This document shows, piece after piece, positions 5,072-20,590 of a DNA stretch of 64,000 nucleotides. The first letter of the stretch is position 1, and the number at the start of each line of letters is the position of its first letter. Origin of the DNA: an uncultured Sphingomonadaceae bacterium (GTDB lineage: Bacteria > Pseudomonadota > Alphaproteobacteria > Sphingomonadales > Sphingomonadaceae); contig CANMNF010000001.1 in assembly GCA_947499255.1 (NCBI GenBank), positions 1,054,001-1,118,000 on the forward strand, read 5' to 3'. The position numbers were made by a program, and so were the translations under genes. The notes under the pieces are model-generated. The model worked only from the letters and a program-made list of their open reading frames with translations, did no database searches and had not been told where the DNA came from.

Positions 5072-5210
5072 AGCTTAGCATTTCCACCCCAACCCCGCCA
5101 CCTGTGCCTCACCTGCGATGAAGTGTGGATAGATCACCCCGGTCCGTCCGTTGAATAGGTGAACGTACAATTTTCGGGCAGACGCTTTAGCAATATACAC
5201 TGGTAACGGC

Positions 5211-5231: not shown

Positions 5232-5236
5232 CAATA

Positions 5237-6139: not shown

Positions 6140-6209
6140 TACCAATGTGGCCGGGGCGGATTTTCGCTGACACTTGCGATATGCGGTCCGCCACGGCAAA
6201 GCGGCGGCC

Positions 6210-6755
6210 ATGATTATCGCCTTCAACAAACCGTTTGGCGTACTTTCGCAATTCTCGGGCGGTAAGGACCGGTCACCGCATCCAACGCTTTCGGGCTTTG
6301 GATTGCCGGGGAAGGTTTATCCCGCAGGCAGGCTTGATCGCGATAGCGAGGGTTTGCTGCTGTTAACCGATGATGGCCGCCTGCAATCACGTATTGCGGA
6401 GCCGCGACATAAGATGCGCAAAACCTATTTGGCGCAAGTCGAAGGAGTGCCCGACGAAACGGCGCTCCTCGCTTTGCGCGAAGGTGTCGCGCTTAAAGAC
6501 GGGCTGACCCGCCCTGCCCAAGCTGCCGCAATTGCCGAACCGCAACTTTGGGACCGCGACCCGCCGATCCGGTATCGCAAATCTGTTGCCGATAGCTGGA
6601 TCAGCCTTGCCATCACCGAAGGGCGCAATCGGCAGGTCCGGCGAATGACCGCCGCGACCGGATATCCAACCTTGCGGCTGGTACGCTGGCAAGTGGGCGA
6701 TTGGACCGTGGAGGGATTAGCGCCGGGCGAGTGGCGCGAGGTGCCCTTATCGTGA
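6210..6755 (+). CDS. rluE: 23S rRNA pseudouridine synthase, RluE type (RsuA family)
   Basis: A 181-residue RsuA-family pseudouridine synthase without an S4 domain, the architecture of RluE, which modifies U2457 in 23S rRNA. The catalytic aspartate lies in GRLDRDSEGLLLLTDDGRL. Downstream are KTYLAQVEG and the conserved EGRNRQVRRM block near the C-terminus. The ATG at 6210 was chosen because family members begin at the short FNKPFGVLSQF strand; the open frame extends a few codons upstream without a supporting signal. Its stop codon overlaps the thpR start, indicating translational coupling. Confidence 0.9.
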   Translation: MIIAFNKPFGVLSQFSGGKDRSPHPTLSGFGLPGKVYPAGRLDRDSEGLLLLTDDGRLQSRIAEPRHKMRKTYLAQVEGVPDETALLALREGVALKDGLTRPAQAAAIAEPQLWDRDPPIRYRKSVADSWISLAITEGRNRQVRRMTAATGYPTLRLVRWQVGDWTVEGLAPGEWREVPLS

Positions 6756-7291
6756 GCGCGCGTTTGTTTGTCGCGCTGGGCCTGCCTGAAAAGGTGAGCG
6801 ACCCGCTGCTCGATCTGATGGAAGGGGTGGATGGCGCGCGCTGGCAGGATGCAGACAATCTGCATGTGACATTGCGCTATATTGGCGCAGTGGACGGACG
6901 CGTTGCAGATGATGTGCATTTGGCGTTGAGCCAGGTGCGCGCGCCACCTTTTCCTTTGAAAATTCGCGGCGTTGGGCATTTTGAACGCAAACGTCTTGGC
7001 AAAGCGTTATGGGCGGATTTTGCGCCCTCGCCGCCATTGGAAGCTTTGCAGCATAGTGTGGAAATGGCGGTGCGCCGCGCCGGAATGGAAGCAGAAACGC
7101 GCAAATTTATGCCACATATCACCCTTGCGCGCCTCAACCGGTCAACGGGCGATTTTAGCAATTGGCTAACGCGTCATGGCGCATTGGCATTGCCGCCCTG
7201 GGAGGTGCGCACGATGGCGCTGTATCAAAGCCATCTCACACAATACGGCGCACATTATGAGGTGTTGGAAACCTATCCTTTGCAGCCTTGA
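6752..7291 (+). CDS. thpR: RNA 2',3'-cyclic phosphodiesterase (2'-5' RNA ligase family)
   Basis: A 179-residue two-histidine phosphodiesterase. Two HxTL motifs are present, HVTL in the N-terminal half and HITL in the second half, the paired catalytic histidines of the LigT/ThpR fold. The GTG start at 6752 overlaps the rluE stop (GTGA). That start places SARLFVALGLP at the N-terminus as in the family. Its position behind rluE suggests a small RNA-processing operon. The physiological substrate of bacterial ThpR is not settled. Confidence 0.9.
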   Translation: MSARLFVALGLPEKVSDPLLDLMEGVDGARWQDADNLHVTLRYIGAVDGRVADDVHLALSQVRAPPFPLKIRGVGHFERKRLGKALWADFAPSPPLEALQHSVEMAVRRAGMEAETRKFMPHITLARLNRSTGDFSNWLTRHGALALPPWEVRTMALYQSHLTQYGAHYEVLETYPLQP

Positions 7292-7317
7292 AGAAGCAGG
7301 CCACATCGTGCCACCCG

Positions 7318-7632
7318 CTATTTCCAGGCAATACCGCCAAGCCAGTCTCCCGCGACGGCCAGAAACGGCTCTATCTCAATCGATTCCCAGATATCGGCGC
7401 CAAAATACGGATCCTGCGCCAAGAGATTCCGCGCATCATCGACGCTATCGGCTTTTACGATCATCAACGAACCCACCGTAAGATCGCCATCTTTCAGCGG
7501 TCCAATCGCGAAAAAGCGATCCACATGCGCTTCGATATGCGCAAGATGTACCGGGCGCAGCGCATCGCGTTTGGCGTTGCTGCCCTGCCCATCACGGCAC
7601 CAACACGCATACGCCAATTGGGGACCGGACAT
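7318..7632 (-). CDS. YciI-like (YCII-domain) protein
   Basis: A 104-residue protein of the YCII/DGPF-like fold. It has the typical RPVHLAHIE segment, a central DGDLTVGSLMIV strand and AQDPYFGADIWESIEIEPF. Family members are small dimeric alpha-beta barrels; some have dechlorinase- or lactonase-like roles, most are uncharacterised. It stands alone and converges with thpR. Function cannot be assigned. Confidence 0.8.
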   Translation of the reverse strand: MSGPQLAYACWCRDGQGSNAKRDALRPVHLAHIEAHVDRFFAIGPLKDGDLTVGSLMIVKADSVDDARNLLAQDPYFGADIWESIEIEPFLAVAGDWLGGIAWK

Positions 7633-7768
7633 TTTACGTCTCCTTCGGGTAAAACTTGCAACAGATGAGTGGGTTGTATGGGGAGGCGGCGCGCTTTGAT
7701 AGCCCCGCGATCACAAAAACGGCGTGCGAAAGGCTTAACCAGCTTTGCAAAGTTCACCCCGGTTGCGA

Positions 7769-8524
7769 TCAGTCCCCAAAATCAGGTTTGCGCTTGTCCA
7801 CAAAGGCTGCGGTGCCTTCGGCAAAATCGGGCAGAGTGAAGGCGCGCGCAAACATCTGCGCGGTTTCATCATCCTCTGCCACCTGCCCATCGAGCACTTT
7901 GCGTACCATGCGTTTGTTTTCACGGATAGCATGGGGGCTTGCCACCAGCAGCGCTGCGATCATCGGATCAGGATCGGTTGCGATCAGTTCAATCAAACCG
8001 ATGCTCAGCGCCTCATCACAATCCAGCAGGCTGCCAGTAAACAACATGCGCCGCGCCTGCCCCGGCCCCACCAGATCGACCAGCAGCTTCACATCATGCA
8101 ACGGATACACAAGGCCAAGCTTTGCCGGCGTGATGCCAAAGCGTGCACGCTGTGTACCAATGCGCATATCACAAGCCAGCGCCAGGCCGCAGCCAGCGCC
8201 AATGCAATCCCCTTCGACAAAGGCCAGCGTGGGCATGCTCAACCGCGCAAGTTTGTGTTGCACAGCGTTGATCGCGTTCTGATTGGCCGCGCGCCAATCC
8301 GCGTCATCTTTATTGGCCAGCAATTCGCGAATATCTGCGCCCGCGCTAAACGCGCCGCCTTGCGCTGAACGCAGGATCAATACGCGCGCTTTGGAATTGG
8401 CCTGCGCCTCATCCAGCAAAGCGGGCATGGCTTGCCACATTGCCATATTCATGGCGTTGCGTTTGTCGGCCCGGTCGATCAGCAAATGAGCTTCCTGACC
8501 GCGATATTCCAGATGTATCGTCAT
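7769..8524 (-). CDS. Crotonase (enoyl-CoA hydratase/isomerase) family protein lacking both hydratase glutamates
   Basis: A 251-residue crotonase. The first oxyanion-hole segment is GGAFSAGADIREL and the second region is GDCIGAGCGLALACDMRIG. In a true hydratase the second segment reads GGGCELA and is followed by FGQPE; here the glutamates are replaced (GAGCGLA, FGITPAKLG). A simple enoyl-CoA hydratase activity is therefore unlikely. An isomerase, decarboxylase, hydrolase or retro-aldol role is possible. The ATG at 8524 is fixed by an AGGAGGAT ribosome binding site. It is the last gene of the minus arm of the catabolic block. Confidence 0.88.
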   Translation of the reverse strand: MTIHLEYRGQEAHLLIDRADKRNAMNMAMWQAMPALLDEAQANSKARVLILRSAQGGAFSAGADIRELLANKDDADWRAANQNAINAVQHKLARLSMPTLAFVEGDCIGAGCGLALACDMRIGTQRARFGITPAKLGLVYPLHDVKLLVDLVGPGQARRMLFTGSLLDCDEALSIGLIELIATDPDPMIAALLVASPHAIRENKRMVRKVLDGQVAEDDETAQMFARAFTLPDFAEGTAAFVDKRKPDFGD

Positions 8525-8736
8525 CGCGGCGCATCCTCCTGTTACGATGCTTTGGCAAAGGTGCGCAGTCGAGCTGACCTGTGTCCAGACGAACTTTCGC
8601 CTAAATCCACCAACCGGCTTTTGCATGTCTTTACCACAAGGCGCATTTAAAGCGTTGCGCGCTTTATCGATCCACGCGCCCGCTGTACCGCTTTTGCTCA
8701 ATTACCATCCAAAGCGCAGCGGGCCATCCTTTGCGC

Positions 8737-9657
8737 TCAACGCATCCAGTTTTCCAGCAACCGGTCCAGCTCTTGCGCGTCATCGCCTTGTATAGCGATG
8801 CGCGCTGCTTTGTCCGCTTCGCCGTTGCCCAGTTCGCCAAGGGCTATCATCGCCTCCAGCTTGGCAATCACGTGCGCTTCGTCTGGCGGCAGACCAGGAT
8901 CGTCAGCACCATTTGCAGGCCATTTTGTAAAACTGACATCATGGATCAACCAGCTACCCGGCTTCTCTGCCAAAACGCCTGCACCACCACTTGTATCGCC
9001 GCCTGGTTTGGGTGCCATCGCGGCGAACAAACCTTGTGGCCCTTCGAGAATGCCTTTGGGTCCGGTCGCGCCGTAATGCACATGCAACGCGGCATCGCGG
9101 CCCGTGCGCACGGCGTGGAAGATATGCCATTGCGCGGTCAGCACATCATCGTGGTGCATATGGTGCAGACCGCCTGCGACAGAGGCCGCATTGCCCATCG
9201 CTTGCGCGAATTCGGTAGGGGCAAAACCAATCGCTGCGCCAAAGCTTGCCGCACTGCCGATCATGCCGCAAACGGTGGTCGCATCCCAGATATCGTTTTT
9301 CGCTGTATGCAACGCCATCCCCACCGCAATCATAGCTTCATATCCACAGATCGCGGCGTCAATGCGCGCCTCCAGTCCTGCGCTTTCATAGCTGTTGGCA
9401 GCGGGCCAGATGACCGGGCCGGGATATAAAGCGGCGGCGCGGTGTATATCCTGCGCGCCAAGCACATTGCCCATATACGTCGCCTTTTCCCACGAGCGTT
9501 GCGAGATAACGCAGCCCAGATCGCTGGCTTCCTTACCGCGCGCTCCTGCAATACAGGCCAGCCAATCGAGCAAGTGGAGACGCGCACGCGCACGCGCCTG
9601 CGCATCGGGTTCGCGCGCCAAACGCTGTGCCAATTGGGTGAGCAAAGTGTCTGTCAT
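8737..9657 (-). CDS. Short MmgE/PrpD family protein (N-terminal domain only)
   Basis: A 306-residue protein matching the N-terminal all-helical domain of MmgE/PrpD, the family of 2-methylcitrate dehydratase and cis-aconitate decarboxylase: HLLDWLACIAGARGKEASDLG, then VCGMIGSAASFGAAIGF. Typical members have about 450 residues and a second alpha/beta domain, which is missing here. No continuation was found in another frame before the next gene, so this looks like a naturally short form rather than a fresh frameshift. The ATG at 9657 was chosen; the open frame upstream is low-quality sequence. It could act on a dicarboxylate or tricarboxylate in the surrounding pathway. Confidence 0.75.
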   Translation of the reverse strand: MTDTLLTQLAQRLAREPDAQARARARLHLLDWLACIAGARGKEASDLGCVISQRSWEKATYMGNVLGAQDIHRAAALYPGPVIWPAANSYESAGLEARIDAAICGYEAMIAVGMALHTAKNDIWDATTVCGMIGSAASFGAAIGFAPTEFAQAMGNAASVAGGLHHMHHDDVLTAQWHIFHAVRTGRDAALHVHYGATGPKGILEGPQGLFAAMAPKPGGDTSGGAGVLAEKPGSWLIHDVSFTKWPANGADDPGLPPDEAHVIAKLEAMIALGELGNGEADKAARIAIQGDDAQELDRLLENWMR

Positions 9658-9781
9658 GATGGTGCTGGCTCTATGTGCAGTTGAGATGCGCGGGGTTGAA
9701 GCGAAGGGTAAAAGCGCGAGATTATCGCTGTGTTTAAGCAAACTGTATTGGTGTGCAAAGGTGCCAGGACTATTTGCAAGA

Positions 9782-10642
9782 CTAACTTGGTGACTGTTTG
9801 CCGCCGCGCGCGATAATAGCGCGGTAGGATTGCACCATTGGTGCTTCAAGCATTCTGCCATTGTGACGGATGGCGTGCCCGCCCGCCTCCTCAAACGCGG
9901 CAATTGCATCGTGCGCTTCGGCAAGCTCGGATGCGCTGGGTGCAAAAGCGCGTTCTATCACGGGCACCTGGCGCGGGTGAATGGCAGCTTTGGCGACGAA
10001 GCCCAAAGCCTTGGCAGCTGCGCATTCATCGGTCAGTGCTGCTGCATCATCAAGATGCAAATGCGGCACATCGATCAGCGGCACTTTGGCCTCTGCACCA
10101 GCCAGCACCAATTGCTGACGCGCGCCGAGCAACGGCTCCCACCCCATTTGTACACCCAATTCCGCAGCAAAATCTCCCCCGCCAAACATCAGCGCGCAAA
10201 CGCCATCGCCACTGGCAATGGCCAGCGCATTGCGCAGCCCGCGCGGTGTTTCAATCATGGGTATGATTGGCGGACATTTATCGCCCAAAGCCGCGCGCAC
10301 AATTTCAATATCGCGGGCTTCTTCGGCCTTGGGTAAAATCATATGACCGGGCAGCGCATCGGCACATGCAAACGCTGCCAAATCCGCGATTCCGGCGGCG
10401 CTGGAGACAGGATTGATGCGAATGCCCCAGCCCGGCCCGTTAATGCCATCTTGCGCCAAAGCGGCATCGCGCGCGGTCTGTTTATCCTCAAGCGGGACAG
10501 CATCTTCGATATCGATTACCGTCAGGCCAGCTCCTGCAGCTTTTGCTTTGGCAAAACGATCCGGGCGTGAACCGGGCACGTAAAGCAGGCTGCTACAGGC
10601 AAAAACCGCATGGTCGCAGGATTGTTGGCGGGTTTCAGACAT
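9782..10642 (-). CDS. CoA-ester lyase, CitE/HpcH/HpaI aldolase family
   Basis: A 286-residue TIM-barrel lyase of the CitE-like group (malyl-CoA, citramalyl-CoA and related lyases). The N-terminus SSLLYVPGSRPDRFAKA is characteristic. VIDIEDAV, IRINP, PMIETPRGLRNA and GGGDFAAELG supply the metal- and CoA-ester-binding acids and arginine. KAAIHPRQVPVIERAF is the usual C-terminal block. It would cleave a 3-hydroxy dicarboxyl-CoA into an acyl-CoA and an oxo acid. Context with a CaiB CoA-transferase and a LeuCD-type hydratase fits a malyl-CoA or citramalyl-CoA analogue as substrate. Confidence 0.9.
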   Translation of the reverse strand: MSETRQQSCDHAVFACSSLLYVPGSRPDRFAKAKAAGAGLTVIDIEDAVPLEDKQTARDAALAQDGINGPGWGIRINPVSSAAGIADLAAFACADALPGHMILPKAEEARDIEIVRAALGDKCPPIIPMIETPRGLRNALAIASGDGVCALMFGGGDFAAELGVQMGWEPLLGARQQLVLAGAEAKVPLIDVPHLHLDDAAALTDECAAAKALGFVAKAAIHPRQVPVIERAFAPSASELAEAHDAIAAFEEAGGHAIRHNGRMLEAPMVQSYRAIIARGGKQSPS

Positions 10643-10701
10643 GGTGATTTACATCTCACACCGTGTGGTCAAAGTCACCTATGCCCGCTGTGGCGCATAC
10701 A

Positions 10702-11619
10702 TTATTGCTGGCCTTTCCAGCTCTTCACAATATCGCCGCCGGTCGCAAACCAGCTGGCATCGCGGCCACTAAGATCAGAGAGCACTTCTTCCAATGCTCC
10801 AATGCGATAGGGCAGGCCCATGATATACGGTGTTAAATGCAAAGGCAGCACGCGCGCGCTGTTTTGCGCTGCTGCTTCACCTTCCAGCCAATCGAATGAA
10901 TCGCGCATCATCTGCGCCCAGCCTTCTGCACTATGCTGCTGCGTGGCAACAATCATGCGATCCGACAGTTCAGTGTTCAACGGCAGATTAGTGAGGCCAT
11001 TGGTGAAGCTGAAAGGCAGCTCATCATTCACCCAGTCACAGCAATATTCCAGCCCATGCTCTTTAAGCAGATCAAGCGTGCGCCAGCTTTGTGAACGTGC
11101 GATGGAGAGCCAGCCGGATGGCTTGACGCCAGCGGCCGCCTCCAACCGCGAAAGGCTGTCCGCAATCAGCTTGCGTTCTGCACCCTCGGGCAATTCAGAC
11201 GTGATTGTGGCGTTCATATCGGTGGAATGCGCGATGATTTCATGGCCATCGGCCAGCACCGCTTCGATCAGTTCGGGATAGCGTTCGGCAATGGCTGCAT
11301 TGGTGGCAAAGCTGGCTTTGACGCCCGCGGCCTGAAACGCATCCAGCATCCGCCAAACACCCACCCGGTTGCCATAATCGCGCACTGTATAGTGGCGGAA
11401 ATCCGGGTACGGCATAACCATATGGCCGGGCGCGCGGAAGGGTTTGTCCTCCGGCGTGATGGGGAACCATTCAAGGCTGACGCACAGCCACACAGCGACC
11501 GATGTATCATGGGGCCAGCGCACCGGTTTGCGCTCATGAATGTTGGACCATTCATACAGGTCATGATCATATCCCTCGGCCCGCTTGGGATAGATGGTAT
11601 ATTCTGCAGGCAGGGTCAT
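10702..11619 (-). CDS. PuuE-like polysaccharide deacetylase superfamily hydrolase (1)
   Basis: A 305-residue cytosolic NodB-fold protein without signal peptide. The segments GVKASFATNAAIAERYPELI, ADGHEIIAHSTDMN and SGWLSIARSQSWRTLDLL follow the layout of PuuE-type allantoinases. In these a histidine in the EVACHG-like strand and other changes replace the usual deacetylase metal triad. Such proteins open cyclic ureides; a Pseudomonas putida cyclic imide hydrolase is, to my knowledge, in the same superfamily. The ATG at 11619 overlaps the stop of the upstream paralogue (ATGA), preceded by ATGGAGGG. The substrate is inferred to be a cyclic amide or imide, not a polysaccharide. Confidence 0.85.
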   Translation of the reverse strand: MTLPAEYTIYPKRAEGYDHDLYEWSNIHERKPVRWPHDTSVAVWLCVSLEWFPITPEDKPFRAPGHMVMPYPDFRHYTVRDYGNRVGVWRMLDAFQAAGVKASFATNAAIAERYPELIEAVLADGHEIIAHSTDMNATITSELPEGAERKLIADSLSRLEAAAGVKPSGWLSIARSQSWRTLDLLKEHGLEYCCDWVNDELPFSFTNGLTNLPLNTELSDRMIVATQQHSAEGWAQMMRDSFDWLEGEAAAQNSARVLPLHLTPYIMGLPYRIGALEEVLSDLSGRDASWFATGGDIVKSWKGQQ

Positions 11620-12500
11620 CGTTGCGCCCTCCATATATCGATAATCTCGCCAGCGCGCGCTTTCCATGCGCGGCCATCGGCAGCGATATGGCGCAGCGCC
11701 TCTTCAAACGGGCCGATGCGGTGGGGTTGTCCGATCAGATAGGCGTGCAGCGGGATGCACATCACTGTGCCTGATCCGGTGCGCTCGCCTTCATCGGCCA
11801 ATCGCTCATATTGTTTGATCAGCGCATCGGCATATTCGCGGCCCGACATGCCATACACATTGAAGCCGTAATGGTCGTTCACTTCAAGGCTGTAGGGGAT
11901 CGAGGCAAGCTGGCCTTTGGCGACGTTCACTTCTTGCACCTGATCATCGTGATACAGATCACACGTATAGGTAAAATCATATTCCGCCAGCAGATCAAGC
12001 GTGCGCGGCGTATGCGATAAAGCCGGGGCCAGCCAGCCGCGAATGCGCTGTCCGGTGGCGCGTTCAACCGTGGCGATGGAATCCTCGATGATGTGGCGTT
12101 CTTGCGCCTCATCCAAACCGTAAGAATATCGCGTGTTGTAAATGCCGTGGCTGAAAAATTCCCAGCCGCGATCTGCTCCGTCCTTCACAACTTCTGGATG
12201 ATGATCGCACAAAGCCACAGAAAGGCTGACAGAGCCGGGGAAGCCGTGTTTCGACATCACTTCGGCCATGCGCCAATGGCTCACCCGGTTGGAGTGATCG
12301 CGGTAGGAATAGCCCACCACATCGGGATGCGGCTTGGCCCATGGCTTGCGCTGCGGATTGGTGGGCGGATCAATCTCGTAATATTCAAGATTGGGCGCAA
12401 CCCACACCGCGCAAGTCTTGCCTTCTGGCCATGCCACTTTCGGGCGGCCACGATAGGGGTGATATTCGTAAAGCTCGGGATCTTTGGCATTTTCCTGCAT
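11616..12500 (-). CDS. PuuE-like polysaccharide deacetylase superfamily hydrolase (2)
   Basis: A 294-residue paralogue of the downstream gene. Recognisable parts are SYRDHSNRVSHWRMAEVM, HGFPGSVSLSVALCDHHPEVV, WEFFSHGIYNTRYSYG and IRGWLAPALSHTPRTLDLLAEY. It has no signal peptide, so a role in wall or exopolysaccharide deacetylation is unlikely. It starts 3 nt after the amidase gene and overlaps the next gene by 4 nt, so the three are tightly coupled. Two divergent copies side by side could form a heteromer or handle two related rings; neither is shown by the sequence. Confidence 0.85.
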   Translation of the reverse strand: MQENAKDPELYEYHPYRGRPKVAWPEGKTCAVWVAPNLEYYEIDPPTNPQRKPWAKPHPDVVGYSYRDHSNRVSHWRMAEVMSKHGFPGSVSLSVALCDHHPEVVKDGADRGWEFFSHGIYNTRYSYGLDEAQERHIIEDSIATVERATGQRIRGWLAPALSHTPRTLDLLAEYDFTYTCDLYHDDQVQEVNVAKGQLASIPYSLEVNDHYGFNVYGMSGREYADALIKQYERLADEGERTGSGTVMCIPLHAYLIGQPHRIGPFEEALRHIAADGRAWKARAGEIIDIWRAQR

Positions 12501-12503
12501 GGT

Positions 12504-13187
12504 TCAGCGCGCCTCCAGCCAATCGATCACACTTTGCACCGGCTCCACATCGGCATATTTCAGCTGCAGATCGGTGAGGTTGGCGAAGTGATAGCTTTCA
12601 TGCTTGTCGGCACATGTCTCAATCGGGACAATTGTGCGATAACCATGGCTAAGCGAATCCACCGCGGTTGCCCGCACACAGCCCGAAGTAGAGCCACCTG
12701 TCACCACTACTGTATCGACTTTGTGCCATGTGAGATAGCTGGCCAGCTGCGATTCAAAGAAAGCAGATGGCATGCGCTTGGTATATTGCAGATCGTTTTC
12801 GTCGATTTCACAGCGCGGATCGAACTTGTGCCGTTCGCTGCCATATGTGATGTTCTGCAGGCTGTCTGGCGTATCGGTGCGCGTGCCCCACACCCCGGCA
12901 TCCCCGGCATCGCCTTTATAGGCCACATGGCTCCAGATCACCGGCATACCGCGTTCGCGGGCCAACCTGCTGATCGTGTTGATGTATTCGATCTGGCGCG
13001 GATCGGTTTCATAGGATGTCTTGAACATATCGAGCCTGGTATAGGCTTGCTGCGGATCGACATTCACAATCGCCAGCTTTTCGCCAAAGCCGAACTTTTT
13101 GCGCGCGGGATTGGCCATCACTTCATCGAATATCTCGCGCGCGGTGCGACCATCTTCGACCATCTTGGTGCCAACAATCTCGCTCAT
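12504..13187 (-). CDS. Isochorismatase-family cysteine amidohydrolase, N-carbamoylsarcosine amidase-like
   Basis: A 227-residue cysteine hydrolase with the complete triad: D44 in AIVNVDPQQAYT, K137 in YTKRMPSAF and C170 in TGGSTSGCVRATAVD. This family hydrolyses amides and carbamoyl groups, for example N-carbamoylsarcosine, maleamate and ureidoacrylate. The ATG at 13187 has GGAG/AGGA just upstream. It is the first gene of the minus arm, so in an imide or ureide pathway it would act after ring opening to release ammonia. The exact substrate is unknown. Confidence 0.9.
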   Translation of the reverse strand: MSEIVGTKMVEDGRTAREIFDEVMANPARKKFGFGEKLAIVNVDPQQAYTRLDMFKTSYETDPRQIEYINTISRLARERGMPVIWSHVAYKGDAGDAGVWGTRTDTPDSLQNITYGSERHKFDPRCEIDENDLQYTKRMPSAFFESQLASYLTWHKVDTVVVTGGSTSGCVRATAVDSLSHGYRTIVPIETCADKHESYHFANLTDLQLKYADVEPVQSVIDWLEAR

Positions 13188-13563
13188 TCCTGCATCTCCA
13201 ATTTGCGCCCAGCCTTGCGACCACGATTTGCGACCGCGATTTGCCTTGCGATGACGATCACATTTTGATCCTACGCACCCATGCGGTTTAATCGGGTTTT
13301 GCCGATCCGTGTATATTTGCTCTTGGGATAATCTCCTGACGGAGAAACAGGCGCGGCTGCAAGCGTTGAAAAGGTGAGGCGCAGCATAATCGCTCGACCA
13401 ATTTAACCGCACCACGATGCTTTACTGGCAATGCCCGCGCGATCCGTCACTATATCTGTATGAGCAGAGCCGCAATTGTGATGGGCCGCAGATACAGGCC
13501 GCCACTGATGAAGGAAAACAGGTCCAGCGCGGCGGATTTGCCTTGGCTGGATTAAGGGAACTG
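13188..13563. other. Divergent intergenic region of the catabolic block
   Basis: This 376-bp stretch separates the two arms and must carry both promoters. I see no coding frame of its own; the open frame running into the LeuC-like gene from 13417 lacks a credible start. No convincing pair of -35 and -10 boxes was found. The clearest structure is a tandem 13-bp repeat at 13217-13242. No regulator gene is adjacent to the block. Confidence 0.5.
13217..13242. repeat. Tandem 13-bp direct repeat upstream of the amidase gene
   Basis: GCGACCACGATTT (13217-13229) is followed immediately by GCGACCGCGATTT (13230-13242), with one mismatch. A weaker third unit (TTGCGATGACGAT) follows. It sits 30 bp before the start of the minus-arm operon, where a regulator could bind. 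It may also be a chance duplication. Confidence 0.4.
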
Positions 13564-14997
13564 ATGAAAGAAGACACACGCCAAACTGACAAGCGGCCCG
13601 GCGCGCAGCCACAAACGCTGCCACAAACACTATTCGCGAAGATTTGGGATGGCCATAAGGTTGCGCAAACCACCGCTGGTGCCGATCTGATTGCGATAGA
13701 CCGGGTGTTCCTGCACGAACGCACCGGCGCATCGGCATTGCGCAATATGGCCGCCACCGGGCGCAAAGTGCGCGATCCGGGCCGTGTTTTTGCCGTCACC
13801 GATCATATCGTCGATACGCGTCCGGGCCGGACGGACAAAACGCTGATGACAGGCGGCCAGTCTTTCATCACCGATACCCGCGCCGCGTGTGAAGAGGCGG
13901 GCATTCGGCTGTTTGATGTGCACGATAAAATGCAAGGCATCACTCATGTCATCTCGCCAGAATTGGGCATTATCCTGCCCGGCCTCACTCTGGTCGCTCC
14001 TGATAGCCACACCTGTACGCAAGGCGCGTTTGGCGCGCTGACTTGGGGCATCGGCTCTAGCGAGGCGGAACATGCCATGGTGACGGGCACTTTGCGGTTG
14101 GAACGGCCCAAGACGATGCGGGTCACCTTCACCGGAACACTCGCACCCGGCGTCACCGCCAAGGATATGGCGCTGCATCTGATTTCGGAACATTCCACGG
14201 GCGGCGGCGCAGGCCATGCGGTTGAGTTTGCCGGCGAAGCGGTCAGCGCGCTCGACATGGAAGCGCGCATGACCTTGTGCAATATGGCGATCGAATTTGG
14301 CGCATTTGGAGGCTTTATCGCGCCCGATCTTAAAACCTTCGCCTATCTTGGTGGCCGGCGATATGCGCCGCGCGAATGGTCCTCTCCTTATTGGCGCACT
14401 TTGAAAAGTGATGAAGACGCGGTGTTTGACCGGGAAATCACCATCGACGCTTCCCAAATCGCGCCGATGGTGAGCTGGGGCACCAGCCCTGAACAAGCCA
14501 TCGCCGTGAACGCGAAAGTGCCCGCCGGGCCAGAACGCGCGCACAACTATATCGGCCTTGAAGAAGGCGTGCAGCTTGCTGGCACGCCCATCGATGTGGC
14601 CTTTATTGGCTCGTGCACCAATTCGCGCATTTCCGATCTGCGCCGCGCGGCCGCGATTGTGGAAGGCCGCAAAATCTCGCCGCACATTCGCAAAGCTTTG
14701 GTCGTGCCTGGATCAATGGATGTAAAACGCCATGCCGAACGCGAAGGGCTGGACAAGATTTTTGAAGCGGCAGGCTTTGAATGGCGGATGAGCGGATGCT
14801 CTTTATGCTTTTACGCAGGCGGTGAAGGTTTCCCCGAAAACAGCCGCACAATCAGCTCCACCAACCGCAATTTCGAAGGGCGGCAAGGCCCGCGTATCAA
14901 AACACATATCGCCTCGCCTGAAACGGTGGCCGCCAGCGCCATTGCAGGAGCGATTGCTGACCCGCGCGATTTCGCACCCAAGGGAGGCAAAACATGA
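13564..14997 (+). CDS. LeuC-like aconitase-family hydratase, large subunit (probably not leucine biosynthesis)
   Basis: A 477-residue aconitase-superfamily large subunit. The Fe-S signature FIGSCTNSRISDL gives the first cysteine and SGCSLC the other two; DSHTCTQGAFGALTWGIGSSEAEH is the conserved active-site block. The segment after the last cysteine reads FYAGGEGFPENSR instead of the usual LeuC LAMNPD-type sequence, a difference next to the cluster and substrate. No leuA or leuB is nearby, and CoA-transferase and lyase genes follow. This points to a catabolic hydratase of a substituted maleate or similar acid, like dimethylmaleate or maleate hydratase. The ATG at 13564 follows AAGGGA. Confidence 0.88.
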   Translation: MKEDTRQTDKRPGAQPQTLPQTLFAKIWDGHKVAQTTAGADLIAIDRVFLHERTGASALRNMAATGRKVRDPGRVFAVTDHIVDTRPGRTDKTLMTGGQSFITDTRAACEEAGIRLFDVHDKMQGITHVISPELGIILPGLTLVAPDSHTCTQGAFGALTWGIGSSEAEHAMVTGTLRLERPKTMRVTFTGTLAPGVTAKDMALHLISEHSTGGGAGHAVEFAGEAVSALDMEARMTLCNMAIEFGAFGGFIAPDLKTFAYLGGRRYAPREWSSPYWRTLKSDEDAVFDREITIDASQIAPMVSWGTSPEQAIAVNAKVPAGPERAHNYIGLEEGVQLAGTPIDVAFIGSCTNSRISDLRRAAAIVEGRKISPHIRKALVVPGSMDVKRHAEREGLDKIFEAAGFEWRMSGCSLCFYAGGEGFPENSRTISSTNRNFEGRQGPRIKTHIASPETVAASAIAGAIADPRDFAPKGGKT

Positions 14998-15599
14998 CCC
15001 CTTTTCCGCAGCCTCTTATCGCCAAAGCCGCGCCATTAATGGCCGATAATGTCGATACAGACCTGATCATCCCCAGCCGTGAAATAAAGACTACCGGGCG
15101 CACCGGCCTTGCCGAAGGGATGTTTGCCCCTTGGCGTTATGCCGATCCTATTACACGCGCGGAAAATCCCGATTTCATCCTCAACCATGCAGATTATCGG
15201 CAGGCCCAGATCCTTGCCGTAGGTGCCAATTTTGGGTGTGGATCCAGCCGCGAACATGCCGTTTGGGCGCTCGCGGAATTTGGCATTAAAGCCATTATCG
15301 GGGAAAGCTTTGGCTCCATCTTTCGTGGCAATTGCGTGCGCAATGGGGTGCTGCCCATCACGCTTGATCGCGCCATTGTCGAAGCGCTTGGCGGGCATGA
15401 CGTCACGATTGATCTGGCCGCGCAAACCGTATCGTTCAAAGGGCAGAGCCACGCATTCGCGATAGATTCCGAAGCCAAGGAAATGCTCGCGCATGGCCTT
15501 GATGCAATTGACCTTTCTCTCACACAAGCAGACGCGATTGACGCATGGACTGATGCGGACCGCGCAGCGCGCCCTTGGGTATATCTGGAGCAAGCATGA
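14994..15599 (+). CDS. LeuD-like aconitase-family hydratase, small subunit
   Basis: A 201-residue swivel-domain subunit. NVDTDLIIPSREIKTTG at the N-terminus and the GANFGCGSSREHAVWAL loop are diagnostic of LeuD-type subunits, as is GESFGSIFRGNCVRNGVLP. It overlaps the large-subunit gene by ATGA, so the two are co-translated and form one heterodimeric (de)hydratase. Substrate specificity cannot be read from the sequence; context argues against isopropylmalate. Confidence 0.88.
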   Translation: MTPFPQPLIAKAAPLMADNVDTDLIIPSREIKTTGRTGLAEGMFAPWRYADPITRAENPDFILNHADYRQAQILAVGANFGCGSSREHAVWALAEFGIKAIIGESFGSIFRGNCVRNGVLPITLDRAIVEALGGHDVTIDLAAQTVSFKGQSHAFAIDSEAKEMLAHGLDAIDLSLTQADAIDAWTDADRAARPWVYLEQA

Positions 15600-16513
15600 C
15601 CGACATTCTTATTTCCGAAGTAGGCCCGCGCGATGGGCTGCAAGCAATTGACCGGGTCATGCCGCTCGATGCAAAAAAGGCATGGATCGCAGCCGAAGCT
15701 GCTGCCGGTGTGCAAGAGATCGAAGTGGGCAGCTTTGTGCCTGCAAAACTGCTCCCGCAAATGGCTGACACGCCTGCTCTGGTGGAATTTGCCAAAGGGA
15801 TCGAAGGGCTTAATGTCGTCACGTTAATACCCAACATCAAAGGCGCAGAGTTTGCCGCCAAAGCGGGCGTTCACGGGATGAGCATTCCCTTCTCCATGAG
15901 CGAAAGCCACAGCCTGAAAAATGTGCGCAAGGATCATCCCGCAATGCTGGAACAGATCGCGGGGTGTGCAGAAATTGCCAAGGCCAATGATATTCACTTT
16001 GCCGTGGGACTTTCCACCGCCTTTGGCTGCACCATCGAAGGCGCGGTTGATCCTGTTGCCGTCGCCCGTCTGGCAGAGGCATCGGCAAAGCGCGGCGCGC
16101 AGGAATTTTCCTTGTCGGACACCACCGGCTATGCCGATCCAGCCCAAGTTCGCCGCCTGATCCGCACCGTACGCGAAGCGGTGGGCGATATGCTCACCAC
16201 GCTGCATATGCACAATACGCGCGGGCTTGGCCTAGCCAATGTGGTCGCCGGACTTGAGGAGGGGATCACCACCTTTGATAGCTCGCTTGGCGGGCTTGGC
16301 GGCTGTCCTTATGCGCCGGGCGCCAGCGGCAATATTGTGACCGAAGATTTGGTGCTGATGCTCAATTCCATGGGGCTGAACACCGGCATTGATCTGGAAA
16401 AATTGCTCGCGGTCCGACCTATTCTGGAACAAGCCCTTCCTGGTGAGCCGCTTTATGGCTTTACGCCCGATGCAGGCCCGATGCTTGATTACAAAGAAAG
16501 AATTGCCGCATGA
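15596..16513 (+). CDS. Hydroxymethylglutaryl-CoA lyase-like protein
   Basis: A 305-residue DRE-TIM metallolyase. It begins ISEVGPRDGLQ (metal and catalytic Asp-Arg), continues with SLSDTTGYADPAQV and TLHMHNTRGLGLANVVAG (metal-binding HxH), and ends with the glycine-rich GGLGGCPYAPGASGN cysteine loop of HMG-CoA lyases. The enzyme cleaves tertiary 3-hydroxyacyl-CoA thioesters. Start and stop overlap both neighbours by ATGA. In this operon it could split the CoA ester of a hydrated branched dicarboxylate. A role in leucine degradation is possible but no liu genes are present. Confidence 0.9.
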   Translation: MTDILISEVGPRDGLQAIDRVMPLDAKKAWIAAEAAAGVQEIEVGSFVPAKLLPQMADTPALVEFAKGIEGLNVVTLIPNIKGAEFAAKAGVHGMSIPFSMSESHSLKNVRKDHPAMLEQIAGCAEIAKANDIHFAVGLSTAFGCTIEGAVDPVAVARLAEASAKRGAQEFSLSDTTGYADPAQVRRLIRTVREAVGDMLTTLHMHNTRGLGLANVVAGLEEGITTFDSSLGGLGGCPYAPGASGNIVTEDLVLMLNSMGLNTGIDLEKLLAVRPILEQALPGEPLYGFTPDAGPMLDYKERIAA

Positions 16514-17685
16514 GTGACACGCCCACCCCGCTTGCTGGCCTCAAGGTCATTGAATTTACGCATATGGTGATGGGGCCAACGGTGGGCCACATGCTCGCCG
16601 GGCTTGGCGCGGATGTGACGCGGATTGAACCTATTGGCGGGGATCGCACACGCCGCCTGATCGGTTCGGGCTCAGGCTATTATCCGATGTATAATCGCGG
16701 CAAGAAATCGATCTGCCTTGATCTCAAAAGCGAAGGCGGATTGCAGGTTGCCAAAGATCTGTGCGCGGACGCTGACATCCTGATTGAAAACTTCCGCCCC
16801 GGCGCGCTGGAACGGCTTGGCTTGGGTTATGAAACCTTGTCGGCGGTTAATGAGCGGCTGATTTATTGCAGCGAAAAAGGCTTCCTGCCCGGCCCTTATG
16901 AAGAACGCACCGCGCTTGATGAAGTGGCCCAGATGATGGGCGGGCTGGCTTACATGACCGGCCCTCCGGGACAGCCTTTGCGCGCAGGTGCCAGCGTGGT
17001 CGATGTGACAGGCGGGATGTTTGGCGTGATCGGCGTGCTCGCCGCATTGGAAGAACGCCACCGCACCGGCAAAGGTCAGCTGGTAATGGCCAGCCTGTTT
17101 GAAACCACGATCTATCTGGTAGGTCAGCATATGGCGCAATATGCCGTCACCGGAAAACCCGCCGCCCCCATGCCCGCGCGCGTTTCTGCATGGGCGGTTT
17201 ATGATGTGTTTCAAACCAGGGACGAGCCTGTCTTTATCGGCGTTGTCACCGATCCTTTGTGGAAGAAGTTTTGCAAGCTGTTTGCACTTGATGATTTGTG
17301 GGCGATTGAGGAATATCGGGAGAACAATGCGCGGGTGAAAGCGCGCGATATCATCATCCCGCAAATCCGCGAATTGATCAGCACCATGACCCGAGATGAA
17401 GTGGTGGCAAAGCTGGATGGCTCTGGCCTGCCCTTTGCCCCCATTGGCAAGCCTGAAGACATGTTCGACGATCCGCATCTGGCGCAAGGCGGCATGGAGG
17501 AAGTCACGCTGGACACAGGCGAAGTCACCAAGCTACCCACAATCCCGCTATCAATGGGCGGCAAGCGCACAGCATCGCCGCAAAAACTGGCTAAGGCCGG
17601 TGAAAACGGGGACGATGTGCTCGAAGCCTTGGGTTATGATGCCGATAAGGTTGCTGCGCTTAAAGCAAGCGGCGCAGTTGGGTGA
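16510..17685 (+). CDS. CaiB/BaiF family (class III) CoA-transferase
   Basis: A 391-residue class III CoA-transferase. LAGLKVIEFTHMVMGPTVGHML and GADVTRIEPIGGDRTR form the N-terminal nucleotide-binding part. The likely catalytic aspartate lies in SVVDVTGGMFGVIGVLAALEERH. Family members move CoA between carboxylic acids, including succinyl-CoA to malate, citramalate or itaconate. It ends the plus-strand operon and would activate the acid made by the LeuCD-like hydratase for cleavage by one of the two lyases in the block. Confidence 0.9.
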   Translation: MSDTPTPLAGLKVIEFTHMVMGPTVGHMLAGLGADVTRIEPIGGDRTRRLIGSGSGYYPMYNRGKKSICLDLKSEGGLQVAKDLCADADILIENFRPGALERLGLGYETLSAVNERLIYCSEKGFLPGPYEERTALDEVAQMMGGLAYMTGPPGQPLRAGASVVDVTGGMFGVIGVLAALEERHRTGKGQLVMASLFETTIYLVGQHMAQYAVTGKPAAPMPARVSAWAVYDVFQTRDEPVFIGVVTDPLWKKFCKLFALDDLWAIEEYRENNARVKARDIIIPQIRELISTMTRDEVVAKLDGSGLPFAPIGKPEDMFDDPHLAQGGMEEVTLDTGEVTKLPTIPLSMGGKRTASPQKLAKAGENGDDVLEALGYDADKVAALKASGAVG

Positions 17686-17732
17686 TTATCGTTTGAGGTG
17701 ACGGGCTGGCGCTTGGCGTGTGGCCTTCCTAT

Positions 17733-17764
17733 CTTGATCATCACCATTCCTTTTCGTGATCAAG
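17733..17764. promoter_or_regulatory. Inverted repeat before the M3 peptidase gene
   Basis: CTTGATCA (17733-17740) and TGATCAAG (17757-17764) are perfect inverted repeats with a 16-nt spacer. The right arm includes AAGG, the probable ribosome binding site 7-10 nt before the ATG at 17772. It could be a dimeric repressor site or an RNA hairpin that masks translation initiation. Confidence 0.45.
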
Positions 17765-17771
17765 GCCCGAT

Positions 17772-19850
17772 ATGACCAGCCCGAAGACCAGCCCGCAACT
17801 CACCGCCGCCGCTCCGTTTGCCAAGCCTTCATCGCTGCCTTTTCAAGCGCCCGATTTCGGCGTGATTGCAGATGAGGATTATCAGGCCGCGATAGAAGAA
17901 GCGATGGCCGTGCGTCTGGCAGAATATGAAGCGATTGCCAGCAATACCGACGCGCCTACCTTTGCCAACACGTTGGTTGCGATGGAGCAGGCAGGCAGCA
18001 TCCTTCGCCGTGCCTATGCGCCTTTCAGCCAGAAAGTCAGCGCCAATATCAATCCAACGCTGGCTGCAGCAGAAGAAGCGCTCGCCCCCAAACTATCGCA
18101 GATGAGCGATGCGATTTACCTCAATGCGGACCTGTTTGCGCGGGTAAAAGCGGTTTATGACGCGCGCGATCTGGCGGATCTGACCGAGGAAGAACAGCGC
18201 CTGCTGGAGACAACTTACGCCGAATTTGTGCATCGCGGGGCGTTGTTATCCGATGATGACAAAGCGCAGCTGCGCGCCATCAACACGCGCATTTCCGCGC
18301 TGTCGGCAAAAATGTCTTTGGCGATGACGCAGGCGCAAAATGATGGCGCATTGCAGGTGGAAACGCGCGAGGAATTGGCAGGACTGACAGATGCGCAAAT
18401 CGCCTCAGCCGCAGCTACTGCAACAGCGCGCGGGGCGGATGGCAAATTTCTCCTGCCACTGGTCAACACGACATCGCATCCGCTGCTCGCGTCGCTCGAC
18501 AATCGCGATTTGCGTGAGAAACTGTACCGCGCCAGCATCGCGCGTAATCAGGGCGGCGATCACGACACACTCGATGCCGCGCGTGAGACGATCAAGCTGC
18601 GCACCCGCATTGCTGAGCTGACCGGCCATGAGACCTATGCCCATCACCAGATGTTTGATCGCATGGTTTCCGATCCGGCGCGCGCAATTGGCTTTATGCG
18701 CGATATGGTCCCTGCCCTGTCCGCAACGCAGGACCGCGAAGCAGCAATGATCAATGAACGCATTGCTCAAGATGGCCACAATTTCACCGTCGCGCCGTGG
18801 GATTGGCCTTATTATGCGGAGAAAATCCGCCAGGAACGCTATGATCTGGATAAGGATGCGATTGCGGAATATTTCGTGGTCGATCGCGTGCTGGAAGATG
18901 GCGCGTTTTATGTCGCACAACAGCTTTATGGCCTCAGCTTTACCAAGCGCACCGATCTGCCCGTCTATCACCGCGATGTCAGCGTTTATACGGTGAAAGA
19001 TCACGATGGCAGCGATCTGGCGCTGTTCTATTTCGATCCCTTCGCGCGGGAGAGCAAGCGGGGCGGTGCTTGGATGAACGCCTATGTTTCGCAAAGCCAT
19101 TTGCTGGGCACTTTGCCTGTTATCGGCAACACCCAAAACGTGCCGCCGCCGGCCGATGGCGCGCCTGCTTTGATGACTTTTGATGAAGTCATCACGCTGT
19201 TCCACGAATTTGGCCATGCGCTGCATGCGATGCTGTCTGATCGCAAATATCCTTCGCTTTCAGGCACCAATACCGCGCGCGATTGGGTGGAGCTGCCCAG
19301 CCAGTTTCATGAAAAATTCGCGCTGCTGCCTGACGTGCTCAAACGCTATGCCCGCCATCACGAAACAGGTGAGCCAATCCCTGCTGAGATGATCGCCGGG
19401 ATGGAACGTGCCGCGCAGTTCAACCAAGGCTATGACTTTGGCGAAGTCGTGGCGGCATCTTTGCTCGATATGGAATGGCATGTGCTGGGCAGCGAAGATG
19501 CGCCCGATGATGTGATGGCGTTCGAAAACGAGACTTTGCAACGCCTCGGCCTCAACACCGATCTGGTGCCGCCGCGTTATCGCACACCGTATTACAGGCA
19601 TATTTTCGGCCATGAATATCAGGCAGGGTATTACGCTTATACCTGGACGGAAATGCTGCATCACGATGCGTTTGACTGGGTGATGGAAAATGGCGGCATG
19701 ACGCGCGAAATAGGCGATCATGCGCGCACCAGTTTCCTCGATAAAGGCAATGCGCGCGATTATGATGCGATGTTCCGCGATTTTACAGGGCGAGAGCCGC
19801 GCATGGAGCCGATGCTGGCCGCGCGCGGATTGCTGGCGCCTGCGGCCTAG
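17772..19850 (+). CDS. M3 family metallopeptidase, peptidyl-dipeptidase Dcp-like
   Basis: A 692-residue zinc peptidase of family M3. The HExxH motif is in ITLFHEFGHALHAML near residue 478, with the third ligand glutamate downstream. WVELPSQFHEKF and FGHEYQAGYYAYTWTEMLHHDAF are conserved M3 segments. No signal peptide is seen, so it acts on short peptides in the cytoplasm. It is separated from the CoA-transferase gene by 86 bp with its own inverted repeat, so it is probably a separate unit. Its stop shares the palindrome CTAG with the stop of the convergent btuD gene. Confidence 0.93.
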   Translation: MTSPKTSPQLTAAAPFAKPSSLPFQAPDFGVIADEDYQAAIEEAMAVRLAEYEAIASNTDAPTFANTLVAMEQAGSILRRAYAPFSQKVSANINPTLAAAEEALAPKLSQMSDAIYLNADLFARVKAVYDARDLADLTEEEQRLLETTYAEFVHRGALLSDDDKAQLRAINTRISALSAKMSLAMTQAQNDGALQVETREELAGLTDAQIASAAATATARGADGKFLLPLVNTTSHPLLASLDNRDLREKLYRASIARNQGGDHDTLDAARETIKLRTRIAELTGHETYAHHQMFDRMVSDPARAIGFMRDMVPALSATQDREAAMINERIAQDGHNFTVAPWDWPYYAEKIRQERYDLDKDAIAEYFVVDRVLEDGAFYVAQQLYGLSFTKRTDLPVYHRDVSVYTVKDHDGSDLALFYFDPFARESKRGGAWMNAYVSQSHLLGTLPVIGNTQNVPPPADGAPALMTFDEVITLFHEFGHALHAMLSDRKYPSLSGTNTARDWVELPSQFHEKFALLPDVLKRYARHHETGEPIPAEMIAGMERAAQFNQGYDFGEVVAASLLDMEWHVLGSEDAPDDVMAFENETLQRLGLNTDLVPPRYRTPYYRHIFGHEYQAGYYAYTWTEMLHHDAFDWVMENGGMTREIGDHARTSFLDKGNARDYDAMFRDFTGREPRMEPMLAARGLLAPAA

Positions 19851-20590
19851 CTTCGCGTGATCAGCGCCTGCGCGCCCGCTTCCCCGATCCAGCGTGCCTT
19901 AACGCCCCAAACGTTGGCGATGATCTGAGGGGTTAGAGCGGTTTGCGGTGTGCCTTGCGCCGCGATTTTGCCCTGATCGAGCACCACCACCTTGTCGGCA
20001 TGGTTCATCGCTTGGGCCAGATCATGCACGACAATGGCAACGCCCGTTCCCGCTGCTGCTTCATCGCGCAATTGGCCGATAACGCTATCGCGGTGGGCCA
20101 GATCGAGCGCGGCCAGCGGTTCATCGGTTAACAGCCAGCGCGGCTCGCCTGCCAATACGCGCGCCAGCAATGCGCGCGCTTTCTCACCGCCGGAAAGGGT
20201 GGAGATGGGCCTCTGCGCAAAGTTGGACATTTCCACTTTGGCCAAAGCTTTGGCGATGGCCGTCTCATCCCGGTCCCGGTGCGGCAATCGTCCCAGCGCT
20301 GTGAGATTGTGGACCGACACATCCCATGCGATTTCGCCATTTTGTGGCAGGAAACCGATAAGCTTGGCCCGCGCCTCATGCGCCATTGTATTCAATATCA
20401 ATCCGTCGAGCCTTACCTCGCCAGCATCGGGCGCGATCAAGCCTGCCAACACGCTCAAAAGCGTAGATTTGCCCGCGCCATTGGGGCCGCAAATCGCGGT
20501 CACTTCTCCCGGATTGAGCGACATGGAGATATCGCACAAGGCCTGCGCTGCGCCCAGATGGACGGTGATGTTCCTGGCGCTCAAGCCCAT
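19847..20590 (-). CDS. btuD: ABC transporter ATP-binding protein, vitamin B12 import
   Basis: A 247-residue ATPase with Walker A CGPNGAGKST, signature LSGGEKARALLARVLAG and Walker B WLLTDEPLAALD. It is most similar in layout to the FecE/BtuD/HmuV group. It overlaps the permease gene by 10 bp and is the last gene of an operon that begins with a cobalamin riboswitch and btuB, so cobalamin is the expected substrate. No terminator separates it from the convergent peptidase gene. Confidence 0.9.
   Translation of the reverse strand: MGLSARNITVHLGAAQALCDISMSLNPGEVTAICGPNGAGKSTLLSVLAGLIAPDAGEVRLDGLILNTMAHEARAKLIGFLPQNGEIAWDVSVHNLTALGRLPHRDRDETAIAKALAKVEMSNFAQRPISTLSGGEKARALLARVLAGEPRWLLTDEPLAALDLAHRDSVIGQLRDEAAAGTGVAIVVHDLAQAMNHADKVVVLDQGKIAAQGTPQTALTPQIIANVWGVKARWIGEAGAQALITRS

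Follow-up and report, generated by a model that had tools for sequence, protein, structure and literature searches.

Two divergent gene arms in a sphingomonad genome

The window, by which the whole stretch of 64,000 nucleotides is meant (C1:1054001-1118000 in a 2.96-Mb genome of an uncultured Sphingomonadaceae bacterium), contains a block of genes arranged in two divergent arms. To judge from its sequence, the block appears to be the shrunken yet intact core of a large, conserved supercluster. On balance, we favor the view that this retained core serves the catabolism of substituted cyclic imides, which would be converted via a half-amide, a maleate, a malate analogue and a coenzyme A (CoA) ester that is finally cleaved.

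The minus-strand arm starts at the center with three core genes. They encode an isochorismatase-family amidase of the maleamate amidase/N-carbamoylsarcosine amidohydrolase type (ICH, 12504..13187), a candidate half-amide deamidase, and two hydrolases of the PuuE/imidase subfamily. PDA1 (11616..12500), assigned by profiles, sequence and fold, is a candidate ring-opening enzyme; PDA2 (10702..11619), assigned by profile and sequence matches, has divergent active-site motifs. Further outwards follow genes for a CitE/RipC-type C-C lyase resembling citramalyl-CoA lyase (CitE, 9782..10642; PF03328), an MmgE/PrpD protein without the C-terminal domain (8737..9657; PF03972 only), a crotonase/enoyl-CoA hydratase family protein (7769..8524; PF00378) and, at the 3' end, a small YciI-like open reading frame (ORF; 7318..7632, named by eye). 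The plus-strand arm consists of four core genes, encoding a LeuC-like aconitase-family large subunit (13564, ATG, to 14997), a LeuD-like small subunit with an 'IIPSRE(M/I)' loop (14994..15599), a C-C lyase of the 3-hydroxy-3-methylglutaryl-CoA (HMG-CoA) lyase type (HMGL, 15596..16513) and a CaiB/family III CoA-transferase (16510..17685; PF02515, E 3e-106). These genes overlap by four bases at each junction, provided that the assigned starts are correct. Profile searches recovered the families named in the initial annotation on the strands given there. For comparison, 80 related loci with flanks of up to 10 kb were used, the best of at least 577 candidates from named genomes encoding a PDA1 relative, among which close relatives are over-represented.

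The closest solved sequences of both PDA1 and PDA2 are 1z7a and PuuE (3cl6). For PDA1 a structure was predicted (mean predicted local distance difference test score, pLDDT, 77; predicted template modeling score, pTM, 0.82), whose ten best fold matches are 3rxz, 1z7a, 3cl6, 3s6o and 3qbu, some of them titled 'putative' deacetylases, followed by ArnD (8t0j); the first characterized carbohydrate esterase, 2cc0, ranks twelfth. By sequence and predicted fold PDA1 falls into the PuuE/imidase branch of the NodB-fold (CE4-like) hydrolases, to which PDA2 can be assigned by sequence alone. The PDA1 motifs around SHG, DLYHDD, PYSLEVND and LHAYLIGQPHR line up with PuuE. His118, Asp181, Asp185, Asn208, Asp209, His252 and Arg261 are each invariant in 123 of 123 rows of the conservation analysis, which was limited to sequences exceeding an identity threshold and includes some loci that overlap within a single genome. 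PDA2 was found in 79 of the 80 related loci. Since the genome has another PuuE-like gene in a purine-type cluster, next to UraD- and xanthine-dehydrogenase-like genes (named by eye), PDA1 and PDA2 are not required for allantoin. Allantoin/purine catabolism was dropped as the principal explanation of the two proteins because of this gene and because their scores lie far under the PuuE cut-off.

In ICH, Asp45 (114 of 114 rows), Lys138 and Cys171 (116 of 116 rows each) are conserved, residues which are taken to be the catalytic triad of the isochorismatase family. Its top solved match, 4l07 (E 1.5e-28), is listed merely as an isochorismatase-family hydrolase and is presumably the Pseudomonas putida S16 maleamate amidase. 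The N-carbamoylsarcosine amidohydrolases 26st (E 6e-28, about equal to 4l07) and 1nba are also near solved relatives, which bears on another explanation of the block: PDA1 and PDA2 would open a substituted hydantoin or dihydropyrimidine, ICH would act as N-carbamoyl hydrolase releasing CO2 and ammonia, and LeuCD, CaiB and HMGL would follow after a separate deamination. In keeping with such a hydantoin-type route, PuuE itself is an allantoinase, HyuA/HyuB-type genes occur in one related locus (L136), and AllA-like, bicupin and histidine-utilization-like ORFs were seen by eye in the locus of Sphingobium phenoxybenzoativorans (L111). However, an amino acid product needs deamination before LeuCD, and no aminotransferase or ammonia-lyase was seen among the recurrent families, representatives of which were inspected by eye and in part profiled. 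Moreover, the AllA, cupin and Hut-like genes of L111 have no match in any other compared locus. A cyclic ureide is regarded as rather unlikely, and of the two substrate classes proposed initially, imides or ureides, the former are favored. In L111, the histidine-utilization-like ORFs (276-7065) and the bicupin, AllA-like and major facilitator superfamily (MFS) ORFs (17133-19862) flank the core on either side.

In the LeuC tree, the protein of the window belongs to a clade apart from the leucine-type copy of the same genome (L001). It scores 516.7 bits against TIGR00170, below the cut-off of 560.25 for leucine-type LeuC. The cysteines of its Fe-S motif (Cys350, Cys411 and Cys414) are each conserved in 69 of 69 rows; the residues adjoining the last of them are altered in comparison to six other LeuC sequences. 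In LeuD, the loop after IIP/ILP reads SRE(I/M)K, as opposed to QFL/VFLK in five solved isopropylmalate dehydratase small subunits, a position that presumably sets specificity. Among rows at least 47% identical, Ser28 and Glu30 are present in 69 of 69 and Arg29 in 68 of 69; ten rows had no readable loop, and two loci with other LeuD types (L097, L136) read IIFPARFLL. The LeuCD-like pair might have been the only copy of the genome, a possibility raised initially, but the genome encodes a further LeuC, adjoined by a LeuD match. Ordinary leucine biosynthesis was rejected as the function of the pair on the grounds of the separate LeuC clade, the changed LeuD loop and the other LeuC copy. Elsewhere in this genome (L143:9500-12735, C1 at about 24 kb), a small LeuC/LeuD-like pair is divergent from a methylisocitrate-lyase relative, an arrangement resembling the dimethylmaleate hydratase/dimethylmalate lyase pair; TonB receptor and LysR-like genes lie in its neighborhood (by eye).

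HMGL belongs to the HMG-CoA lyase family (NF004283, 264.9 bits; cut-off 246), and its closest solved enzymes are HMG-CoA lyases. His204 and His206 (82 of 82 rows), presumably the metal-binding pair, and Cys237 (81 of 81), presumably catalytic, are conserved throughout. The CaiB protein is a family III CoA-transferase with Asp165, which is taken to be the catalytic aspartate, in 65 of 65 rows; its second-best solved match is a succinate-hydroxymethylglutarate CoA-transferase (9br6).

Between the arms, on the plus strand, a degraded fragment of a lipocalin-like (DUF3598-type) gene was detected (13324..13506; tblastn 47.5% identity over 61 amino acids, E 1.8e-9). The frame read, of 61 codons, contains two stops; in relatives the intact gene precedes leuC. 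A promoter search between the arms gave nothing above chance, and within positions 7000-21600 nothing reached the Rfam gathering score. The YciI-like ORF has a homologue (51%) in one of the 80 related loci and is probably incidental to the block. Adjoining the CaiB gene are ORFs for an M3-type peptidase and then for an ATP-binding cassette transporter ATPase and a FecCD-type permease (17772-21534), while an ORF of 807 residues at 2648-5071 resembles a restriction-modification methylase (all by eye). The ORF caller occasionally selects antisense ORFs in GC-rich DNA.

Association of the arms and the larger supercluster

Of the 80 related loci, 64 contain all seven core genes (PDA1, PDA2, ICH, LeuC, LeuD, HMGL and CaiB), and the divergent two-arm layout is seen in 57 of these 64. 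Among the 59 loci of at least 20 kb, the full set occurs in 51. Such a grouping goes far beyond what chance would produce. Across 149 genomes from the same family, PDA1 was found at an identity of at least 55% in 28 (any match in 61) and the special LeuC of the window's type at 59% or more in 25. Both were present in 25 genomes, PDA1 without this LeuC in three, two of which are assemblies only 66-67% complete, and LeuC without PDA1 in none (Fisher p 2e-25, or 1e-24 without the own genome; kinship not corrected). In one genome (G038) about 1.45 Mb of the same contig separates the two genes, and in two others (G030, G113) they occupy separate contigs, so that the association is more than linkage. 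Since PDA1 and the special LeuC co-occur even when unlinked, the two arms belong together, as initially proposed. No PDA1 match was found in the two genomes of the same genus that were searched (G014, G103). A phylum-wide search of 398 genomes detected ICH at E <= 1e-50 in eight, of which six belong to other families. Cluster copies also exist in a different class, in Peristeroidobacter (L096) and Steroidobacter (L102), whose LeuC sequences are nested among those of sphingomonads, which suggests horizontal transfer.

This association also bears on the possibility that the acid branch represents an ordinary route for branched acids, in which CaiB and an HMG-CoA lyase process 3-hydroxy-3-methylglutarate, beside an unrelated amide-hydrolase operon. 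The subfamily assignment of HMGL and the second solved match of CaiB would agree with it, and two other HMGL-like proteins occur in the genome. On the other hand, such a route leaves no role for LeuCD, the genes from leuC to the CaiB gene overlap end to start in the window, and the arms co-occur tightly, in unlinked genomes as well. This explanation is considered highly improbable.

In relatives the core is accompanied by further genes. Fuller clusters occur in cultured relatives, among them Altererythrobacter lutimaris (L062) and Erythrobacter tepidarius (L049). With every match in the fetched stretch counted, whatever its position and identity, genes for an alpha/beta hydrolase were found at 64 of the 80 loci, for an aldehyde dehydrogenase at 59, a lipocalin-like protein at 58, a methyltransferase at 53, a DUF3108-like protein at 51, a GlcD-type flavin adenine dinucleotide (FAD) oxidase at 44, a nitrilase-like protein at 42, a TonB receptor at 27 and an MFS protein at 26. 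Here and below, the names SDR, VOC, MDR, PaaK-like, TRAP, GntR, IclR, UraD-like and xanthine-dehydrogenase-like, as well as CaiB-like in L146, were given by eye from translated ORFs. The alpha/beta hydrolase and lipocalin-like genes lie between leuC and ICH, on the same strand as leuC, e.g. in the Erythrobacter locus L036. That no transporter or regulator lies in the block, as initially stated, is true of its annotated genes, but MFS, TonB-receptor and GntR genes are found close by in relatives. In the nitrilase-superfamily protein of L036 (14456-15541) and its homologues, the usual position of the catalytic cysteine seems to read 'IASEE' (by eye); it is possible that this protein is non-catalytic or an altered enzyme. 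The recurrent methyltransferase family has an unassigned N-terminal part (L098:14831-16060, L127:5428-6693), and in some cases a small ORF of roughly 120 residues comes after it, e.g. L127:6690-7049.

A neighboring gene set, here called module 3, into which the cluster continues in some relatives, comprises in L175/L176 genes for a TonB receptor, a DUF1838 protein, CitE, a MaoC protein of the mesaconyl-CoA hydratase type, an acyl-CoA dehydrogenase, two CaiB proteins, GntR, two MmgE/PrpD proteins, a ligase, an amidase, an SDR protein, a further PuuE-like protein and a crotonase. Its MaoC protein matches the Pfam mesaconyl-CoA hydratase family, and the match to RipB/Ich is below the cut-off. The module is kept in L177/L178, L182, L183 and L184. 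CitE, MmgE and crotonase genes stand in the window in the same order as in module 3, and the window proteins are similar to their counterparts (CitE 62%; MmgE/PrpD 59% to MmgE1 over about the first 250 residues; crotonase 67% identical to that of genome G060). The window CitE reaches 190 bits against RipC_Ccl (NF038242), under the cut-off of 375, and is thus not assigned to RipC/Ccl. The MmgE/PrpD protein is short, as initially described, having only the N-terminal domain, whereas three profiled relatives have both Pfam domains. Within the fetched flanks of the 80 loci, CitE was found in two and MmgE and crotonase in none. CitE, the short MmgE/PrpD protein and crotonase are leftovers of module 3; as integral steps of the chain they were rejected, since they are rare or absent in the 80 loci and conserved in module 3. 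The gene set initially described is incomplete in the window, which has an eroded version of a larger supercluster. MmgE homologues were detected in 20 of the 149 genomes, 17 of which are PDA1-positive. In the 20 kb fetched from each of two genomes lacking PDA1 (G048, G062), a crotonase, a short MmgE and another two module-3 genes are retained. Together with the losses in the window, these remnants suggest that erosion of the supercluster is under way in several lineages.

It is conceivable that the block in the window is itself a non-functional relic of a supercluster working only in relatives, a scenario compatible with the other explanations. Most accessory genes are lost, MmgE is truncated, a degraded fragment lies upstream of leuC, both searched genomes of the same genus lack PDA1, and G048 and G062 show only few module-3 genes. 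By contrast, the core ORFs are intact with conserved catalytic residues, and each core protein has only zero to two private substitutions at otherwise invariant positions. A relic is judged unlikely.

On another contig of the same genome a further set, module 2 (L131, C2:804000-823500, and L142, C2:784001-804000), encodes PDA3, a third PuuE-like protein, together with an Amdase-family protein, FAD monooxygenases, methylisocitrate-lyase relatives and an enzyme resembling propionate-CoA ligase. By eye, two methylisocitrate-lyase-like ORFs (one of them profiled), a methyltransferase, an MFS protein and a TonB receptor were seen, and an integrase-like ORF at the edge. In a distant genome (G428), genes of modules 1 (the core cluster) and 2 lie in adjoining stretches. 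Module 2 is relevant to an N-heteroaromatic explanation, according to which hydroxylases and oxidases degrade a pyridine- or pyrrole-type ring to a maleate-type half-amide, as in nicotinate catabolism, with the PuuE-like proteins acting on another amide intermediate. Maleamate is an amide of the nicotinate pathway, the Amdase superfamily includes maleate isomerase, and in module 2 of related genomes FAD monooxygenases and an Amdase-family protein are next to the third PuuE-like protein. However, no ring-cleaving dioxygenase was recognized in the ORFs read, and at many loci the core occurs without module-2 genes in the fetched stretch. This explanation, too, is improbable.

A possible route from cyclic imides to acyl-CoA

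From the observed families, their conservation, their co-occurrence and the erosion, we infer each of the following reactions, its direction and the substrate. PDA1 and PDA2 would open imide rings, yielding half-amides, and ICH would strip the amide nitrogen to give a substituted maleate-type dicarboxylate. Hydration of the double bond by the special LeuCD may then produce a malate analogue that carries a tertiary hydroxyl. CaiB may put CoA on the distal carboxyl, and a retro-aldol reaction catalyzed by HMGL may release an acyl-CoA and a 2-oxo acid from the CoA ester. LeuCD and HMGL would thereby run the chemistry of isopropylmalate/homocitrate chain extension in reverse. As deduced from the chemistry, a 2-alkylmaleate would give acetyl-CoA and a 2-oxo acid after hydration, CoA loading and HMGL cleavage, and compounds with a methyl group on the other carbon would give propionyl-CoA instead of acetyl-CoA. 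Module 3, with CaiB, acyl-CoA dehydrogenase, the mesaconyl-CoA hydratase type and CitE, probably serves the saturated, succinimide-type counterpart.

The strongest argument for this mechanism is the replacement of the lyase. In the window, as in L127/L146 (CaiB there named by eye), the trio of ICH, PDA1 and PDA2 is combined with LeuCD, HMGL and CaiB. L125 pairs it with a different LeuCD and a methylisocitrate-lyase relative, and L128 with CaiB, acyl-CoA dehydrogenase, MaoC and CitE; L125, L127 and L128 all lie outside the family. By family, each of these back ends could cut a dicarboxylate after hydration. Since the interchangeable lyases each suit a dicarboxylate, ring opening and deamidation most likely yield a (substituted) maleate or succinate, which makes a cyclic imide the most likely starting ring. 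The route from imide to cleavage of the CoA ester, as initially outlined, fits the conserved gene set and the lyase replacements best; only CitE and crotonase have to be withdrawn as a second lyase branch, as they come from a module of the mesaconyl/citramalyl-CoA type.

Several observations weigh against the imide route. The cut-off of the NCBIfam PuuE equivalog (424.6 bits) is reached neither by PDA1 (100.6) nor by PDA2 (99.8), and in PDA2 several PuuE motifs are altered. A carbamoyl substrate is possible for ICH because 26st is about as close as 4l07. Naming models alone would give LeuCD, since LeuD passes TIGR00171 (172.1 bits; leuD cut-off 116.25) and LeuC exceeds the subfamily models NF009116 and NF004016. 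LeuC of L125 lies outside the clade of the window protein, so it is not the same hydratase. The linkage is not constant, as eight of the 59 loci of at least 20 kb lack part of the acid branch in the fetched stretch (L056, L097, L100, L101, L108, L109, L113 and L114). LeuD and PDA2 have two private changes each, at the top end of their sets (rank 1 of 68, tied, and rank 2 of 85, tied, respectively). Finally, the window has lost the aldehyde dehydrogenase, hydrolase, MFS and other genes kept in relatives, and the pathway may therefore be partial in this organism.

Possible substrates and comparison with known systems

The supercluster as a whole may be the last stage of natural tetrapyrrole turnover, with bilin or chlorophyll fragments being imported and their maleimide- and succinimide-type rings degraded by separate modules to propionyl-CoA and 2-oxo acids. 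Candidate rings derived from tetrapyrroles are methylethyl- and methylvinylmaleimide, haematinic acid and dihydrohaematinimide. One hint is the parallel modules, which would match a pair of diacids, one unsaturated and the other saturated. A further hint is the lipocalin-like partner (L036:7342-7851 and homologues), which shows a weak PF12204 match. Its model (pLDDT 93.5) has 21 fold matches at E <= 0.001, among them Ycf58/CpcS-type proteins, BFA1, a DUF3598 protein, Rv2717c, CpeS and nitrobindins; bilin lyases of the CpcS/CpeS type and haem-binding nitrobindins are thus among its nearest folds. Photosynthetic reaction centers occur in 11 of 28 cluster-positive and 15 of 121 negative genomes (p 0.002, kinship not corrected). 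On the other hand, lipocalin-like folds bind many ligands, and matches at 8-14% identity weigh against tetrapyrroles, as does haem oxygenase, which is not enriched (one of 28 cluster-positive versus 14 of 121 negative genomes). No tetrapyrrole-cleaving enzyme was recognized inside the clusters, the one exception being a haem oxygenase that adjoins locus L109. Little weight was given to this haem link because the gene is matched in no other compared locus and enrichment is lacking. Tetrapyrrole-derived maleimides are thus compatible with the data but weakly supported as substrate, and the turnover hypothesis as a whole is quite doubtful. In the Novosphingobium locus L109 (13022-15910), a TonB receptor and the haem oxygenase (PF01126) are encoded downstream of ICH-PDA1-PDA2.

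If the proposed imide route is true, it would be a widespread aerobic route for the bacterial mineralization of substituted cyclic imides, for which no bacterial gene cluster was found in the literature searched. It would also assign functions to LeuCD and HMG-CoA-lyase paralogues that automatic annotation labels as leucine enzymes, and reveal one ring-opening front end paired with interchangeable C-C cleavage back ends. The natural consumers of imide fragments would become a directly testable question. Each enzyme family and related steps are already known, but the combination is apparently undescribed: no description of it was found in the literature searched, which mostly did not extend to subscription papers.

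Among known systems, anaerobic nicotinate fermentation uses the dimethylmaleate hydratase DmdAB, a member of the LeuCD family, on a substituted maleate, followed by 2,3-dimethylmalate lyase. The order of hydration by a LeuCD-family enzyme and C-C cleavage is the same as that proposed here, and L125 even has LeuCD together with a methylisocitrate-lyase relative. However, the lyase step in the window would be CoA-dependent (CaiB and HMGL), and the maleate would stem from an imide and not from methyleneglutarate. In aerobic nicotinate and maleimide metabolism, maleamate is deamidated by an isochorismatase-family amidase and maleate is then isomerized to fumarate; the window would share the deamidation of a half-amide, with hydration, CoA loading and cleavage instead of isomerization. 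In nicotinate degradation by Aspergillus nidulans, ring opening of a cyclic imide by the PuuE-related imidase HxnM is followed by the release of ammonia by another enzyme, the amidase HxnN (PMC9304392), an experimental precedent for the division of labor proposed for the window genes. That route involves a six-membered imide, a single imidase and alpha-hydroxyglutarate as product, and the consulted part of the article mentions no LeuCD, CoA-transferase or C-C lyase (PMC9304392). Module 3 resembles itaconate degradation (Ict-Ich-Ccl/RipABC) in having CaiB, a RipB/Ich-like MaoC protein and CitE, of which the window keeps the RipC/Ccl-like CitE; it differs in its additional acyl-CoA dehydrogenase, PuuE-like hydrolase, amidase and SDR protein, and in scores below the cut-offs of the RipB and RipC models. 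Finally, chain elongation by LeuA/LeuCD and HCS/HacAB employs the same superfamilies, an HMGL-like lyase and an aconitase-family isomerase, whereas the direction proposed for the window is degradative and proceeds via a CoA ester.

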